Shown here one piece after another: positions 27,672 through 34,741 of a DNA stretch of 64,000 nt. The notes under the pieces are model-generated. The model was not told where the DNA came from. It did not search any database and saw only the letters and a program-made list of their open reading frames with translations. The stretch lies in assembly GCF_030127105.1 (NCBI RefSeq), contig NZ_CP126161.1, positions 2,418,001-2,482,000 on the forward strand, written 5' to 3'. Each line of letters begins with the position of its first letter. The first letter of the stretch is position 1. The translations under genes and the position numbers were made by a program. This stretch comes from Haloarcula pelagica (GTDB lineage Archaea; Halobacteriota; Halobacteria; Halobacteriales; Haloarculaceae).

Positions 27672-28139
27672 TCAGTCCTCGATGCCCTGGCGGACCTTCA
27701 CGGCCATCCCGGTCTCGAAGTCGGCCATGCCTGCGCCGGGCAGTTCCGCCCGTCCGACGGCCAGCAGGTCGCCCTCTTCGTGCAGTACGAGCACCTCGTC
27801 GCCGGGGCGCAGTTCGGGGTCGGCCCGCTGGACGAACTTCGCGAAGACGTTGCGTCCCTCACGGACGAACGGTTCGCTCTCGTCGCCGACGACGACGCGG
27901 TGACGGGGGGCCGCGAACCCGTCCGCGAGCCGTGTGCCGCCGGCCGGTCCGAGCCTGAATCGGCCGTCGCTCCCGTAGGTCACCACTCGGCCGTCCCCGT
28001 CGTGGACTTGCCGGGGTCGACCGGACGACGTGTGGGTCACCGTCAGGTCGTCGGGCGGGGAAAACAGCGCCGCTCCGGCGCCCCGACCGAACTGATAGTC
28101 GGCCGAGCGGCGGAGCCCGCGGAGCTCTCGGTCGGTCAT
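27672..28139 (-). CDS. PUA-domain protein
   Basis: A 155-residue protein. The C-terminal 75 residues are a PUA RNA-binding domain (about 78-150) with [21 protein letters not shown]. The N-terminal part ([18 protein letters not shown]) is typical of haloarchaeal PUA proteins related to tRNA-guanine transglycosylase/pseudouridine synthase partners. It is the first gene of the nac-trmI operon, 59 bp upstream of nac, so a role in RNA modification or ribosome function is plausible. Start at 28139 is chosen over a longer frame. Confidence 0.82.
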
Positions 28140-28256
28140 GGTCGCTCTGGACGGGCCGCGGACAACGGTGTTTCGGTCCACGAGCGTGTGTAGTGTTGAC
28201 GGCCTTCTCGGAATCTATCATGATTTATCGTACGCCCCTCTGGCGGTTTTGGGGAA

Positions 28257-28263
28257 ATTTATA
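28257..28263 (+). promoter_or_regulatory. TATA box of the 60-residue membrane protein gene
   Basis: ATTTATA lies 25-31 nt upstream of the ATG at 28288, so the message should be leaderless. The divergent region 28140-28287 contains no gene. Confidence 0.55.
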
Positions 28264-28287
28264 CCGGATGAATCCATAGCTGATCCC

Positions 28288-28470
28288 ATGGCAACAGATA
28301 CGCGAAAGGTCGGACTGGGTGCGCTGCTGCTGTTCGTCAGCAGTGTCCTGATTCTCGGTACGGGTCAGCTATCGCTCGGCGTTCCGGTGTACGCGGCAGC
28401 GGTCGCCGCGCTGGGACTCGCCGCCGGATCGTTGCTGGTCGGCACCTCCGAAGACGGCCGCGCCGTCTAG
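28288..28470 (+). CDS. 60-residue two-helix membrane protein
   Basis: Starts MATDTRKVGLGALLLFVSS. Two hydrophobic helices (about residues 7-25 and 29-50) are separated by a short loop. The tail is polar (GTSEDGRAV). It has a good TATA box 27 nt before its ATG. The stop overlaps the NYN-domain gene by 4 bp, tail to tail. Function is unknown, and no family is recognised. Confidence 0.65.
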   Translation: MATDTRKVGLGALLLFVSSVLILGTGQLSLGVPVYAAAVAALGLAAGSLLVGTSEDGRAV

Positions 28471-28964
28471 AGCAGGAACCGTTCGGTGTCCTCGCTCAGG
28501 TCGACGAACATATCGACAGCCTCCTTGAGGTCTTCAGAGGACGACTCTTCGAAGCCCATCGCCTCGACGCGACAGCCCTCGTGACGGAGATACCGACAGA
28601 GCCGTGCGAAGTCGCCGTCGCCCGTACAGAGGACCACCGCGTCGTTGTGTTTCGCGAGCGTGACGGCGTCGAGGCTCATCCCCACGTCCCAGTCGGCCTT
28701 CTTCGAGCCGTCCTGGAAGGTCTTGATGTCCTTGATCCGCGTCTCGAAGCCGATGTCGTCGAGCGCCTCGAAGAACGTCTCCTCCTCGGGGGAGTCGGCG
28801 CGGATGACGTAGGCGATCGCGCGGGTCAGTTCCCGGCCGTCGACGGCACCGTCGAGCAGCGACGAGTAGTCGATGTTCCGCGAGTAGATGCTCTGAGCCG
28901 TGTGATAGAGGTTCTGCGCGTCCGCGAGGACGGTCACGCGCTGTCCAGAATGAGAGACTGGCAT
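28467..28964 (-). CDS. NYN/LabA-like PIN-fold nuclease
   Basis: A 165-residue protein of the NYN domain family (PIN-like fold). Visible motifs are VTVLADAQNLYH with the first acidic residue, KADWDVGMSLDAV in the middle and VVLCTGDGDFARLCRYLR, the conserved D-G-D near the C-terminus. These carboxylates normally hold Mg2+ for RNA cleavage, so it is probably an RNase; the RNA target is unknown. The start MPVSHSGQ at 28964 is preferred over a longer frame. It is a single gene on the minus strand, divergent from dapA by 266 bp. Confidence 0.82.
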   Translation of the reverse strand: MPVSHSGQRVTVLADAQNLYHTAQSIYSRNIDYSSLLDGAVDGRELTRAIAYVIRADSPEEETFFEALDDIGFETRIKDIKTFQDGSKKADWDVGMSLDAVTLAKHNDAVVLCTGDGDFARLCRYLRHEGCRVEAMGFEESSSEDLKEAVDMFVDLSEDTERFLL

Positions 28965-30906: not shown

Positions 30907-30961
30907 GCACCGGCGACATTCGGGAGTGCTTAAACCACCGGGGACGGTACCGAGGGATACG

Positions 30962-31801
30962 ATGCTCGGACAAGACCTCGAACGGAACATCGGGGACCTG
31001 TGGACGGCCTACGAACAGGGCGCGACGGTGGAAGATGTCGAACCCCCGCAGCTGGACACGCTCGACGACTTCCTGACCGCGCTGGAGAACGGCGACGTGC
31101 GCGCCGCCGAGAAGGTTGACGGCGAGTGGCAGGTCAACGAGTGGGTCAAGCGCGGCATCCTGCTGAACTTCGCGTTCCGGAAGACCTACAGCCGGACCTA
31201 CGGCGATGTCGACTACCACGATGTCCTGCCGCTGCGGGACACCGGCGACCTGGGGGAGCGCGGGACACGCAACACGCCGGACGGGACGACCATCCGCCGG
31301 GGGGCGTACCTGGGCGAGGACTGTATCATGATGTCGCCGTCGTTCGTCAACATCGGCGCCCACGTCGGTGACGGGACGCTGATCGACTCCTGTGACACCG
31401 TCGGCTCCTGTGCCCAGATCGGCGAGAACGTCAAGCTCGGCGCGAACACGCTCATCGGCGGCGTCCTCGAACCCGTCGAGAGCGCGCCGGTCATCGTCGA
31501 GGACGACGTGGCGCTCGGCGCCGGCTGTCGCGTCACCAGCGGGTTCGTCGTCGGCGAGGGCTCGGTCGTCGGCGAGAACACGCTGTTGACGCCCCGGATT
31601 CCGGTCTACGACCTCGTCGAGGACGAGGTGCTCTACGGCGAACTGCCGCCCGAGCGGCGCGCGTTCCAGCGCTTCGTCGACTCCTCGGTCGGCGAGCACG
31701 ACCTGTTCGACGGCGGCGCCTACAAGCCCGCCGTGGTGGCGACCGATGTCGAAGAGGAGACGCTGGAAGCGACCGAACGGGAAGACGCGCTTCGGGACTA
31801 G
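30962..31801 (+). CDS. dapD: Tetrahydrodipicolinate N-succinyltransferase
   Basis: A 279-residue left-handed beta-helix acyltransferase. The N-terminal helical domain (about residues 1-90) is followed by hexapeptide repeats such as GAHVGDGTLIDSC, GENVKLGANT and GAGCRVTSG. It transfers succinyl from succinyl-CoA to the ring-opened DapB product, so the succinylase branch is used. Start MLGQDLERNIGDL at 30962 is chosen over a 12-codon longer frame. It is the last gene before a repeat-rich spacer. Confidence 0.92.
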   Translation: MLGQDLERNIGDLWTAYEQGATVEDVEPPQLDTLDDFLTALENGDVRAAEKVDGEWQVNEWVKRGILLNFAFRKTYSRTYGDVDYHDVLPLRDTGDLGERGTRNTPDGTTIRRGAYLGEDCIMMSPSFVNIGAHVGDGTLIDSCDTVGSCAQIGENVKLGANTLIGGVLEPVESAPVIVEDDVALGAGCRVTSGFVVGEGSVVGENTLLTPRIPVYDLVEDEVLYGELPPERRAFQRFVDSSVGEHDLFDGGAYKPAVVATDVEEETLEATEREDALRD

Positions 31802-31971
31802 CGGGATTCCGAACGGAGCGAGGAATCCCGAAAGCGAGCGGCGACGATTGGAGCCGCGAGCAGCGAGGCGCTGAGCGCAGCGAAGCGCCTCGACACCGAC
31901 GCGGCGAGCGGAGCGAACCGTGGAGGAGAGTGAGATCCTCGCGTTGCTCGGGCTCCCGAAGAGCGACCCGC
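31802..31971. repeat. Hairpin-rich extragenic repeat region between dapD and the pseudokinase
   Basis: A spacer with repeated variants of GCGAGCGGAGCGA-type sequence and perfect inverted repeats. CGGGATTCC / GGAATCCCG (31802-31810 and 31822-31830) and CGAGGCGC / GCGCCTCG (31864-31871 and 31885-31892) are the clearest; GAGGA...TCCTC lies near 31923-31940. It lies between convergent genes, so it may serve as a bidirectional terminator. I see no credible ORF. GAGCGnAGCGAG-like units are common in haloarchaeal intergenic DNA. Confidence 0.6.
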
Positions 31972-33342
31972 TCAGACCGACCCCGTCAGATCCCGGTAGA
32001 ACGCGATCGGCGAACCGTAGCGGTCGTCGGGGGCGGGAGCCAGCGCCCGGCGCAGCACCGGCTCGACCGCCTGAGAGATCTCGTCGACGGGCTGGGGCGT
32101 CCGGAGCTGGCCGGTCCGCATCGTCGCCCGGGACCCCGTGGCGGTCTCCTCGACCGGTGTCGTCCCACAGAGGAGCCAGTAGGCGATCGCGCCGAGCTGG
32201 TAGACGACGGTCGTCGGCGTGAGCCGTCCGTCGAGCTGTTCGGGTGCGGTGAAGGGGCTGCCGTGGTCGACGCCCAGCGCCTCCCGGACGGCCCACTCGA
32301 TCCCCCAGTTCGAGACCGTCGCCCGCCAGCCGCTGTCCCCGCCCTTGAGGTGGACGTTCGCCGGGTAGAGTCCACAGACCGGTAGCGACGAGTCCGCGAC
32401 GGTCGTGGCGGCGTCGACGATGTCGCCGAGGATGTCCAGGCGGACTTCGACAGGGAGGTCGGTCCCGATCTCGCCCAGCGTGTGTTTTCCGACGCGGTAG
32501 GCGACCCACGGCGTCGGGGCGGTCCCCGACTCGTGGACCGTCGCCACGTGGGCGCTGTCGTCGACCGTCTCCCAGCGCGAGAGCCGTTCGGAGAAGGCCG
32601 GTTGTACGCCCCCGTCGGTGCCGTGCTTGCTCGACACTGCCAGGATCTCCGCGTAGGTGCCCCCGTCCCACGGCGTCGCGTACCGGTGGACGACCCCGTC
32701 GGTGTCGATGAACTCGACTTTGGTCACGTCGGGGATCGACGCGCCCAGTTGGCCGGGGCTCGCGGGGCCGACGTAGTCGACCTCGGTGGCGTCGCTGGTG
32801 GTCGCTGCGTCGGTCTCCTCGGGGTCGTCGTCCCGTTCCGGCGGCGGGACGGACTCGATGGCTTCCTTGCTGAACCGCACCCCGGAGCGGGTCACGTCGT
32901 GGCGCAGGAACCGGTGGTCCCGTTCCTCGTAGCTCTCGCCGCGCCGGTCGTAGGCGTGGAGGTGTTTGAAGTCGTAGGCCCGCTGGAGTTGCTTGCCGCG
33001 CTTGCCCGCGGCCTCGCGGGAGTCGTGGACTGCCATCGCACAGGTCCCGGCCTCGGGGACGACCGTCCAGGCACCGACGAGGTCGTCGTAGCCGACCACC
33101 AGACACTCGAACAGGGGGTTCCAGTACACCTCGCTGACGCTCCGGGGGCCGTCCCAGCGGACGGCACACGGGTGCGTGTCGGCGTCCATCCGTGATTTCG
33201 CGCTGCGGACGGCGTCGATCTGTTCGTCGTGTGTCGAGTACGTCTCGCCGTCGCGGGCGCCTCTACGATACTCCTCGACGAGCCACACCCGTCCCTGCTT
33301 GACGATCTCCAGTGGTGGTCGCTGTGGCACGTCCGGTGGCAT
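31972..33342 (-). CDS. Protein-kinase-like protein lacking catalytic residues (pseudokinase)
   Basis: A 456-residue protein, start MPPDVPQRPPLEIVKQ at 33342. Residues about 1-165 form an alpha/beta N-terminal domain with two roughly similar halves and aromatic-rich stretches. About 190-290 is a second region with a beta-rich domain (TKVEFIDTDGVVHRYATPWDG). The C-terminal 170 residues resemble a Ser/Thr kinase C-lobe: LYPANVHL replaces the HRDxKxxN catalytic loop (no Asp), SNWGIE replaces DFG, but TAPEQ and YQLGAIAYWLLCGTTPVEE keep the APE and helix F/G pattern. It sits inside the lysine cluster on the opposite strand; its partner is unknown. Confidence 0.65.
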   Translation of the reverse strand: MPPDVPQRPPLEIVKQGRVWLVEEYRRGARDGETYSTHDEQIDAVRSAKSRMDADTHPCAVRWDGPRSVSEVYWNPLFECLVVGYDDLVGAWTVVPEAGTCAMAVHDSREAAGKRGKQLQRAYDFKHLHAYDRRGESYEERDHRFLRHDVTRSGVRFSKEAIESVPPPERDDDPEETDAATTSDATEVDYVGPASPGQLGASIPDVTKVEFIDTDGVVHRYATPWDGGTYAEILAVSSKHGTDGGVQPAFSERLSRWETVDDSAHVATVHESGTAPTPWVAYRVGKHTLGEIGTDLPVEVRLDILGDIVDAATTVADSSLPVCGLYPANVHLKGGDSGWRATVSNWGIEWAVREALGVDHGSPFTAPEQLDGRLTPTTVVYQLGAIAYWLLCGTTPVEETATGSRATMRTGQLRTPQPVDEISQAVEPVLRRALAPAPDDRYGSPIAFYRDLTGSV

Positions 33343-33508
33343 GGCGAGTGGCGGCCGCGATTCCCCCGTCGCGGCCGGGTGTCTTGGCAGAGTAACGTTT
33401 CCCCTCTGATAAGTATGTGTCGGCGACGGTGGCGGGATCGCCGGGCGGCCGGACCACGGTCGCGACAGAGCGGAACCCTTGTTACTCGCCGCCACCGTGT
33501 CTCGTGCA

Positions 33509-34741
33509 ATGAGTCACGCCTCGCCGCCGGTCCGTCGCCTCGCCGACTGGGACCACGACCGGCTGTCCCGACTCGCCGCCGAGCACGGGACACCACTGTA
33601 CGTCCTCGACCTCGACCGCGTCGCAGCGAACTACGAGCGGTTCGCGTCGGCGTTTCCCGACGCCCACGTGATGTACGCCGCGAAGGCCCACACCGGCCAC
33701 GCGGTGCTGTCGAAACTGCTGGAGACGGGCGCGGACATCGAGTGTGCCGCCTGGGGTGAACTCCAGCGAGCCATCGACGCCGGTGCCGACCCCGATACGC
33801 TCCAGTACACCGCCGTCAACCCGCCAGACCGTGACCTCGACTACGCGGTCGATCTGGCCGAGGACCACCCGGGACTGACGATCACCGGCGGCGCGCGCGA
33901 CACCTTCGACCGCCTCGAAGCGCGCGGCTACGACGGCCGTGTCGCCATCCGGATCAATCCCGGTATCGGCACCGGCCACCACGAGAAGGTCGCGACGGGC
34001 AAGGACGCGAAGTTCGGGATCCCCTACGACGAGGTGCCCGGCCTCGCCGACGAGATCGGCGAGCGGTTCGATCTGGTCGGCATCCACGCTCACGCCGGCA
34101 GCGGCGTCCTCCACGACGACCTGGACGACCACTGCCGGGCCATCGCCAAGGTCGCCGAGATGGGGCGAACCGTCGAGCAGTCCCACGACCTGGCGTTCGT
34201 CGACTTCGGCGGGGGCTTTGGCGTCCCCTACCGCGAGGACGAGGACCCGCTGGACATGCAGGTCGTCGGCGAGCGGGTCAGCGAGGCGGTCGGCGACCTC
34301 GACGCCCAGGTCAAACTCGAACCCGGCCGGTACGTCGTCGCCGACGCCGAGTGCATCCTCACCGAGGTCAACACGGTCAAGGAGACGCCGGCGGCGACCG
34401 TCGTCGGCGTCGACGCCTCGCTGGCGACGCTGATCCGCCCGGCGATGTTCGGCTCGTACCACCCGATCCGGAACGTCTCCGCGCCCGACCGCGGCGCCGA
34501 ACCGGTGTCGGTCGGCGGCCCCTGCTGTACGAGCGCGGACGTGTTCTGTACGGATCGGCCGGTCGCCCGGCCCGAGCGCGAAGACCTGCTCGCCATCGGG
34601 AACGCCGGCGCGTACGGCTACGAACTGGCGAACCAGTTCCACTCCCAGCCCCGACCTGCCGAAGTCGCAATCGAAGACGACGACGCCCGGGTCGTCCGGG
34701 AACGGGAGACGCTGGCGGACGTGACCCGGGTCGAGCGATGA
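33509..34741 (+). CDS. lysA: Diaminopimelate decarboxylase
   Basis: A 410-residue PLP enzyme that makes lysine from meso-DAP. The Schiff-base Lys is in YAAKAHTG near residue 57. HAHAGSGV, EPGRYVVADA, CCTSADVF and GNAGAYGYE are family motifs; the Cys and Tyr of the last two complete the active site. ATG at 33509. dapE overlaps its stop by 4 bp. Together with dapA-B-D upstream it gives the lysine pathway, but no dapF epimerase gene is found in this window. Confidence 0.93.
   Translation: MSHASPPVRRLADWDHDRLSRLAAEHGTPLYVLDLDRVAANYERFASAFPDAHVMYAAKAHTGHAVLSKLLETGADIECAAWGELQRAIDAGADPDTLQYTAVNPPDRDLDYAVDLAEDHPGLTITGGARDTFDRLEARGYDGRVAIRINPGIGTGHHEKVATGKDAKFGIPYDEVPGLADEIGERFDLVGIHAHAGSGVLHDDLDDHCRAIAKVAEMGRTVEQSHDLAFVDFGGGFGVPYREDEDPLDMQVVGERVSEAVGDLDAQVKLEPGRYVVADAECILTEVNTVKETPAATVVGVDASLATLIRPAMFGSYHPIRNVSAPDRGAEPVSVGGPCCTSADVFCTDRPVARPEREDLLAIGNAGAYGYELANQFHSQPRPAEVAIEDDDARVVRERETLADVTRVER

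Follow-up and report, generated by a model that had tools for sequence, protein, structure and literature searches.

Much is known about pseudokinases in eukaryotes, and those of bacteria have lately been classified. In the excerpts of that classification considered here, a pseudokinase is a kinase homologue without at least one of three residues, the beta3 lysine, the HRD aspartate and the DFG aspartate, and the families ActPs1, ActPs2, ActPs3, GLW and CP1 have all three motifs degraded (PMC12599244). According to the same excerpts, a PQQ domain is present in many ActPs1 proteins, and the MviN pseudokinase (ActPs3), which is phosphorylated by the active kinase PknB, recruits FhaA, the dead kinase domain acting as a docking platform (PMC12599244). 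These excerpts treat bacterial families, and in the review as a whole the word archaea occurs once, among the references. One Halobacterium kinase-like sequence is listed as lacking the catalytic aspartate in an excerpt of PMC1262709, so archaeal kinase homologues without this residue are not new as such. A full-text literature search for haloarchaea and pseudokinase found nothing related, and among the matches listed for pseudokinases in archaea no title or abstract opening names the family described below.

The gene studied here lies in the window, by which we mean the whole 64,000-nucleotide stretch of Haloarcula pelagica DNA that was analysed, between a dapD-like gene (30926-31801, plus strand) and a lysA-like gene (33509-34741, plus strand), both supported by Pfam. 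Its frame is open throughout, with a stop codon ending at 31972, and close orthologues align from the same ATG. The full-length orthologue in another genome of the genus (89% identity), a Ka/Ks of 0.12 and 753 profile matches to solved structures argue that this is not a chance frame. The alignment and profile of the family comprise 20 rows, the window protein and 19 orthologues. The features of the locus, all on the minus strand, are as follows.

31972..33342, minus strand: coding sequence, 456 aa plus stop, ATG start at 33342
32848..33327, minus strand: N-terminal domain (residues 6-165), alpha/beta in the low-confidence model; occurs elsewhere alone or on other kinases
33130..33327, minus strand: first half of the N-terminal domain, about residues 6-71, with W20, H57, P58 and W63 invariant in 20 rows
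32917..33111, minus strand: second half of the N-terminal domain, about residues 78-142, DUF2188-like by HHalign, decoys and hmmscan
32755..32847, minus strand: variable linker, about residues 166-196, mean pairwise identity 0.23 in 20 rows
31975..32748, minus strand: pseudokinase domain, N-lobe and C-lobe, about residues 199-456
32635..32637, minus strand: former beta3 (VAIK) lysine position, V236, lysine in 0 of 20 rows
32347..32379, minus strand: former catalytic loop VCGLYPANVHL, residues 322-332, with G324 at the HRD aspartate, aspartate in 3 of 20 rows
32302..32310, minus strand: former DFG motif, NWG, residues 345-347, aspartate in 4 and glycine in 20 of 20 rows
32239..32247, minus strand: APE motif, residues 366-368, kept, with P and E in 20 and A in 19 of 20 rows

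With PknB and PknI of Mycobacterium tuberculosis the protein shares the kinase fold over residues ~217-456; it differs from both in lacking the beta3 lysine, HRD aspartate and DFG aspartate, in having another N-terminal domain and in showing no clear sign of a membrane segment (hydropathy at most 1.33 over 19 residues). Degradation of all three motifs is shared with the bacterial pseudokinase families, from which it is set apart by its haloarchaeal origin and its N-terminal DUF2188-like domain. As in ActPs1, PQQ propeller families are matched by several haloarchaeal paralogues. GLW pseudokinases read GLW for HRD and have a membrane segment that follows their kinase domain, whereas the window protein reads VCG and has no such segment. 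The second half of its N-terminal domain aligns with DUF2188 (PF09954) but is embedded in a unit of ~160 residues. With PglW of BREX and with PD-T4-6 it shares the kinase C-lobe, the PglW match covering residues 354-452 only, with no other PglW part.

Kinase fold and catalytic residues

Residues ~199-456 are recognised as a Hanks-type kinase domain by profile: the 20-row profile matches PknB at E 2e-23 (hmmsearch), over profile positions 238-463, and, at E ≤ 0.01, a total of 753 distinct sequences with solved structures. The window protein as a single sequence scores weakly against Pfam Pkinase (14.3 bits, cut-off 31.7). A single-sequence AlphaFold model was useless (mean pLDDT 34), and a four-sequence model had a mean pLDDT of 41.8, with block means of 75-86 in parts of the C-lobe only. 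Foldseek with the latter model gave kinase or pseudokinase domains throughout among the 50 matches listed, with TM-scores by query length of 0.18-0.25 and three at E ≤ 0.001 among these, and VIA-align superposed the same weak model on PknI with a Z of 11.3 over 128 residues (rmsd 3.7 Å). We take the kinase fold as established from the sequence profile, with which the weak model agrees; by this profile, the two-lobed domain belongs by fold to the Hanks-type kinase superfamily. A preliminary description of this DNA had seen a likeness to a kinase C-lobe and proposed structure prediction as a check, and here the low-confidence model sides with the profile evidence. That description named no strand; the motifs that it quoted are all present in the minus-strand frame, TAPEQ at residues 365-369, YQLGAIAYWLLCG at 381-393, LYPANVHL at 325-332 and SNWG at 344-347. 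Its kinase-like C-terminal part is also there, but takes up ~56% of the protein including a degraded N-lobe, not the one third that had been given.

Aligned with PknB, the window protein has V236 for the beta3 lysine, G324 for the HRD aspartate, Y326 for the lysine at +2 and N345 for the DFG aspartate. It thus has none of the residues that mark an active Hanks-type kinase (beta3 lysine, HRD aspartate, DFG aspartate), and with all three absent it is a pseudokinase by the definition of PMC12599244. Across the alignment the beta3 lysine is kept in 0/20 rows, the HRD aspartate in 3/20 and the DFG aspartate in 4/20; no row has all three, and each of the 20 keeps at most one and lacks at least two. 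The asparagine at +5 (N329) is kept in nine rows. What replaces these residues differs among orthologues: the HRD aspartate position reads G, E, A or D, the +2 lysine Y, S, T, H, V, L, R or E, the +5 asparagine N, R, T or S, and the DFG aspartate N, Q, G, D or V. The structural residues P327, G347, P367, E368, Y381, G384 and R441 are invariant in all 20 rows, and A366 is found in 19. The earlier reading of the protein as a pseudokinase therefore stands for the window and for the aligned rows, and the check that it had suggested, conservation of the altered loop, found no intact HRD/DFG set among the 19 orthologues and the window protein. Intact motifs do occur in more distant kinases, including two with the same N-terminal domain at the opposite end.

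The N-terminal domain

The N-terminal ~160 residues form a separate domain, with a mean pairwise identity of 0.49 against 0.41 for the pseudokinase part and 0.23 for the linker. It had been described as unassigned, which agrees with the absence of any Pfam or NCBIfam family above cut-off and of any solved-structure sequence matching the domain profile above chance (best E 0.55), yet its second half appears DUF2188-like in profile-profile comparison. DUF2188 (PF09954) scores 16.4 bits against the domain of the window protein, below the Pfam gathering cut-off of 22 bits, and matches 6 of 14 members in hmmscan (best E 4.5e-4). HHalign of the second half with a DUF2188 profile of four haloarchaeal rows, two of them picked by eye, gave a probability of 92% and E 6e-7 over 64 columns, with a score of 40.3, whereas the best of 200 column-shuffled decoys scored 17.0 and the reversed profile 14.9; with the two confirmed rows alone, E was 5e-4 and the probability 30%. 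The first half scored 13.8 against DUF2188, a value reached by 4 of 200 decoys. A haloarchaeal DUF2188 protein used as query gave matches built from weak repeats only. The preliminary description had also seen two related halves, and here their likeness is suggestive but their kinship unproven, the HHalign score of 16.0 between them being matched by 5 of 200 column-shuffled decoys; a relation of the first half to DUF2188, or to the second half, is only suggestive.

Beyond the family of the host, the domain is found in two genomes of one genus (G168 and G428), alone twice and behind a kinase once. The kinases that precede it (L011, L109) look intact, with VAVK, HLDLKPEN and DWG, and that of L011 groups with intact kinases, from which we infer that the domain was joined to kinases more than once, or exchanged. 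Domain comparison characterises it as an exchangeable, separately mobile and partly DUF2188-like module.

Its stand-alone copies adjoin genes for NYN-domain and TGT_C2/PUA proteins (L073:5716-7692 and L110:7790-9681), and NYN and TGT_C2/PUA genes are also present in the window at 27672-28961, 3-4 kb from the pseudokinase gene. On a 26-kb contig, three small DUF2188-like frames, one by Pfam and two by eye, stand in a row (L085:778-2833) near a gene that by eye is recombinase-like.

Distribution, constraint and ancestry

A whole-protein search found the N-terminal domain with a kinase-like part, or its remains, in 22 of 146 genomes of the family. Nineteen of these copies have an open frame and can be aligned along their length, and three are damaged, with broken frames in G307 and G213 and an internal deletion in G220. 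The profile of the N-terminal domain matched 19 of 392 sampled genomes of the order, in two families only, and one of 344 genomes drawn from the phylum, which was the host itself. So patchy a distribution marks the gene as dispensable. Where it is present it is kept: between the window gene and L020, the orthologue of 89% identity, Ka/Ks amounts to 0.116 for the N-terminal domain and 0.123 for the pseudokinase domain, and over six pairs it ranges from 0.116 to 0.296 in the two domains, with the linker reaching 0.476. Both domains are under purifying selection, and the protein is therefore a maintained pseudokinase.

A midpoint-rooted tree was made of 50 kinase domains, L030, L039 and L043 having been left out beforehand; the motif table has 53 rows, 8 of them intact. 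The orthologues form one clade (support 100/100) within a haloarchaeal group of 37 rows (99/99), in which no row has the complete motif set. The other side of the tree holds 13 rows, namely intact kinases, L044 and four degraded domains, and the group labelled active includes L044 despite asparagine in place of its catalytic aspartate. If activity is ancestral, its loss would predate the protein family. Ten relatives were scanned for further domains: eight from the 37-row group, an intact kinase and a paralogue from the host. In seven of them, all members of the 37-row group, the dead domain is preceded by PQQ-propeller and/or PKD domains. By hydropathy, 7 of 15 paralogues have at least one membrane-like segment. 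Large pseudokinases with a PQQ propeller and/or PKD domains, possibly receptor-like, were seen at L067, L068, L071, L077, L078 and L079, and several large PQQ/PKD pseudokinases are clustered on contig 42 of one genome (G253).

Kinases of the host and of carrier genomes

No intact Hanks-type kinase was found in the host genome, which is 99.96% complete. Pkinase matches three of its proteins, one from the ABC1 family and two pseudokinases that read HGG where HRD would stand. A profile built from intact haloarchaeal kinases gave three host matches, all degraded, and the host lacks the 410-aa kinase-FHA protein that its relatives carry. Since there are three RIO-family matches in the host, Ser/Thr phosphorylation may still take place. 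Two paralogues, L008 and L009 (G000:C1:2201912-2202538 and 3145129-3145740; frames of 471 and 477 aa), have HGG for HRD and DNVG for DFG, and similar proteins recur in related genomes.

A kinase search at E ≤ 1e-10 in 20 genomes, chosen for carrying the focal gene, gave 64 rows, comprising 20 focal proteins and 44 others, of which 8 are intact and the remaining 36 are without one or more of the defining residues (the motif of one row, G253:C42:50742, was read by eye). All 8 intact kinases are relatives of the kinase-FHA protein of L162, in which the FHA domain was tested, the others being assigned by similarity. With two further kinase-FHA proteins beyond the 64 rows (G203, G208), 10 of the 20 carriers have one, which leaves the other half, the host included, with no intact Hanks-type partner found. 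At L162:244-2708 a vWA-domain gene is followed by the intact kinase-FHA gene.

Gene neighbourhoods

Gene calls in the neighbourhoods rest on an ad hoc composition score instead of a gene finder, and neighbours were named by eye unless run through Pfam. Across the orthologue loci, no partner gene is conserved beside the pseudokinase beyond lineage-level synteny. The dapD gene adjoins it in six genomes of the same genus. In seven of eight same-genus genomes without the pseudokinase gene, other predicted genes occupy the 1.5 kb beside dapD, and in the eighth this stretch has none. Of the eight, two show lysA, and a search beside dapD for a trace of the protein reached a best E of 0.075, at chance level. 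The stretch after dapD thus differs within the genus (31801-33509 of the window; L047-L051; L113-L120). A six-member cluster of neighbours that by eye resemble ABC transporters and another of 143-148-aa proteins, one of them Usp by Pfam, are common kinds of gene and were taken as chance. A sigma-70 scan gave no match, as expected for an archaeon.

Other arrangements were seen at single loci or small sets of loci. Pseudokinase genes are clustered with a protein of ~1040-1050 aa at L067:5389-18827 and L071:5266-19690 (Tubulin_2 by Pfam in L067); the L067 cluster also has two proteins with no Pfam match, and L071 has similar-looking genes in the same order. This cluster may be a tubulin-like/pseudokinase system. 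A further gene set recurs at L070:3114-13771, L072:8631-14737 and L109:39-7622, consisting of a lysine/glutamate-rich protein of 218-221 aa with no Pfam family over cut-off, an AAA ATPase (by Pfam in L070), a 234-246-aa protein with no Pfam match and an intact kinase gene. The L070 set includes a PP2C phosphatase, and the kinases of L072 and L109 carry the focal N-terminal domain.

Proposed function and alternatives

The product of the gene is likely, in our view, a Hanks-type kinase devoid of catalysis, probably soluble, that serves as a non-phosphorylating adaptor or sensor. On this explanation the pseudokinase would transfer no phosphate, the N-terminal domain would recognise a ligand or partner, and the kinase-shaped domain, with the structural residues of its C-lobe kept, would dock a second protein, the whole acting as an adaptor or sensor switch. 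Because no intact Hanks-type kinase was found in the genome, a partner of non-Hanks type is more probable than a Hanks kinase activated by the pseudokinase. The likeness to MviN and FhaA would lie in a dead kinase domain used for docking. Because MviN is a membrane protein and is phosphorylated by an active kinase, the comparison concerns how the protein works and not membership; by this analogy, an adaptor or sensor role is plausible, as is the scaffold or sensor function suggested in the preliminary description. Weighed against it were the lack of a conserved neighbour as partner, the patchy distribution, a possible binding of nucleotide by an altered site (P327 and G347 being invariant and N329 kept in nine rows) and the weak structure model.

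Resemblance to the kinase parts of defence proteins, PglW of BREX and PD-T4-6, would suggest an anti-phage or conflict protein. These are the best named-family matches (PglW at E 1.5e-8 in NCBIfam and 2.6e-10 in PADLOC, PD-T4-6 at 1.8e-9), and patchy distribution would fit such a role. The best matches, however, extend over some 100-167 residues within the kinase domain, chiefly its generic C-lobe, and PglW in NCBIfam scores 32.8 bits, far below its cut-off of 990; moreover, the gene adjoins dapD in the six same-genus genomes, and 3 pattern-matching stretches in a viral collection encode no relative. With no scores at cut-off and no defence context among the neighbours that recur between loci, a defence role was not adopted, and we consider it unlikely. 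Quite unlikely, too, is an atypical active enzyme in which a rebuilt active site binds nucleotide and phosphorylates or AMPylates. Alternative catalysis or ATP binding is described for some pseudokinases in the excerpts of PMC12599244, and the invariance of P327 and G347 could be read in this light, but one would expect a rebuilt active site to be conserved, and the variation of the would-be catalytic positions among orthologues argues against one.

The N-terminal domain could instead do the work, in a role linked to RNA metabolism, with the kinase-like part as a mere carrier. It is the better conserved of the two by mean identity, its stand-alone copies in G168 and G428, of another family, adjoin NYN and TGT_C2/PUA genes, and such genes lie within 3-4 kb in the window. 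Those two genomes are of one genus, however; in the window three dap genes separate the NYN gene from the pseudokinase gene, the NYN cluster occurs only at the six dapD loci and not at other orthologue loci, and constraint on the pseudokinase domain equals that on the N-terminal domain in the window pair, so that we find this very unlikely. Decay of a gene without function is highly improbable: three of the 22 family copies are indeed broken or shortened, but the other 19 are open and fully aligned, and Ka/Ks is 0.12-0.30 in both domains over 6 pairs.

Implications for haloarchaeal signalling

New here are a dead state common to a maintained haloarchaeal clade, an exchangeable N-terminal module and a host that seems to have no intact Hanks-type kinase. 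More broadly, and tentatively, haloarchaea of this family may have turned most of their Hanks-type kinases into pseudokinases, both compact ones and large ones joined to PQQ/PKD domains, with some genomes, the host included, signalling without an intact Hanks kinase, and with the N-terminal domain as a new exchangeable sensor module on dead and intact kinases alike; we hold this to be possible rather than probable. A maintained pseudokinase clade in genomes where no intact Hanks kinase is found would show that the kinase fold can serve as a stand-alone binding platform, and archaeal non-catalytic signalling would become directly testable in tractable haloarchaea.
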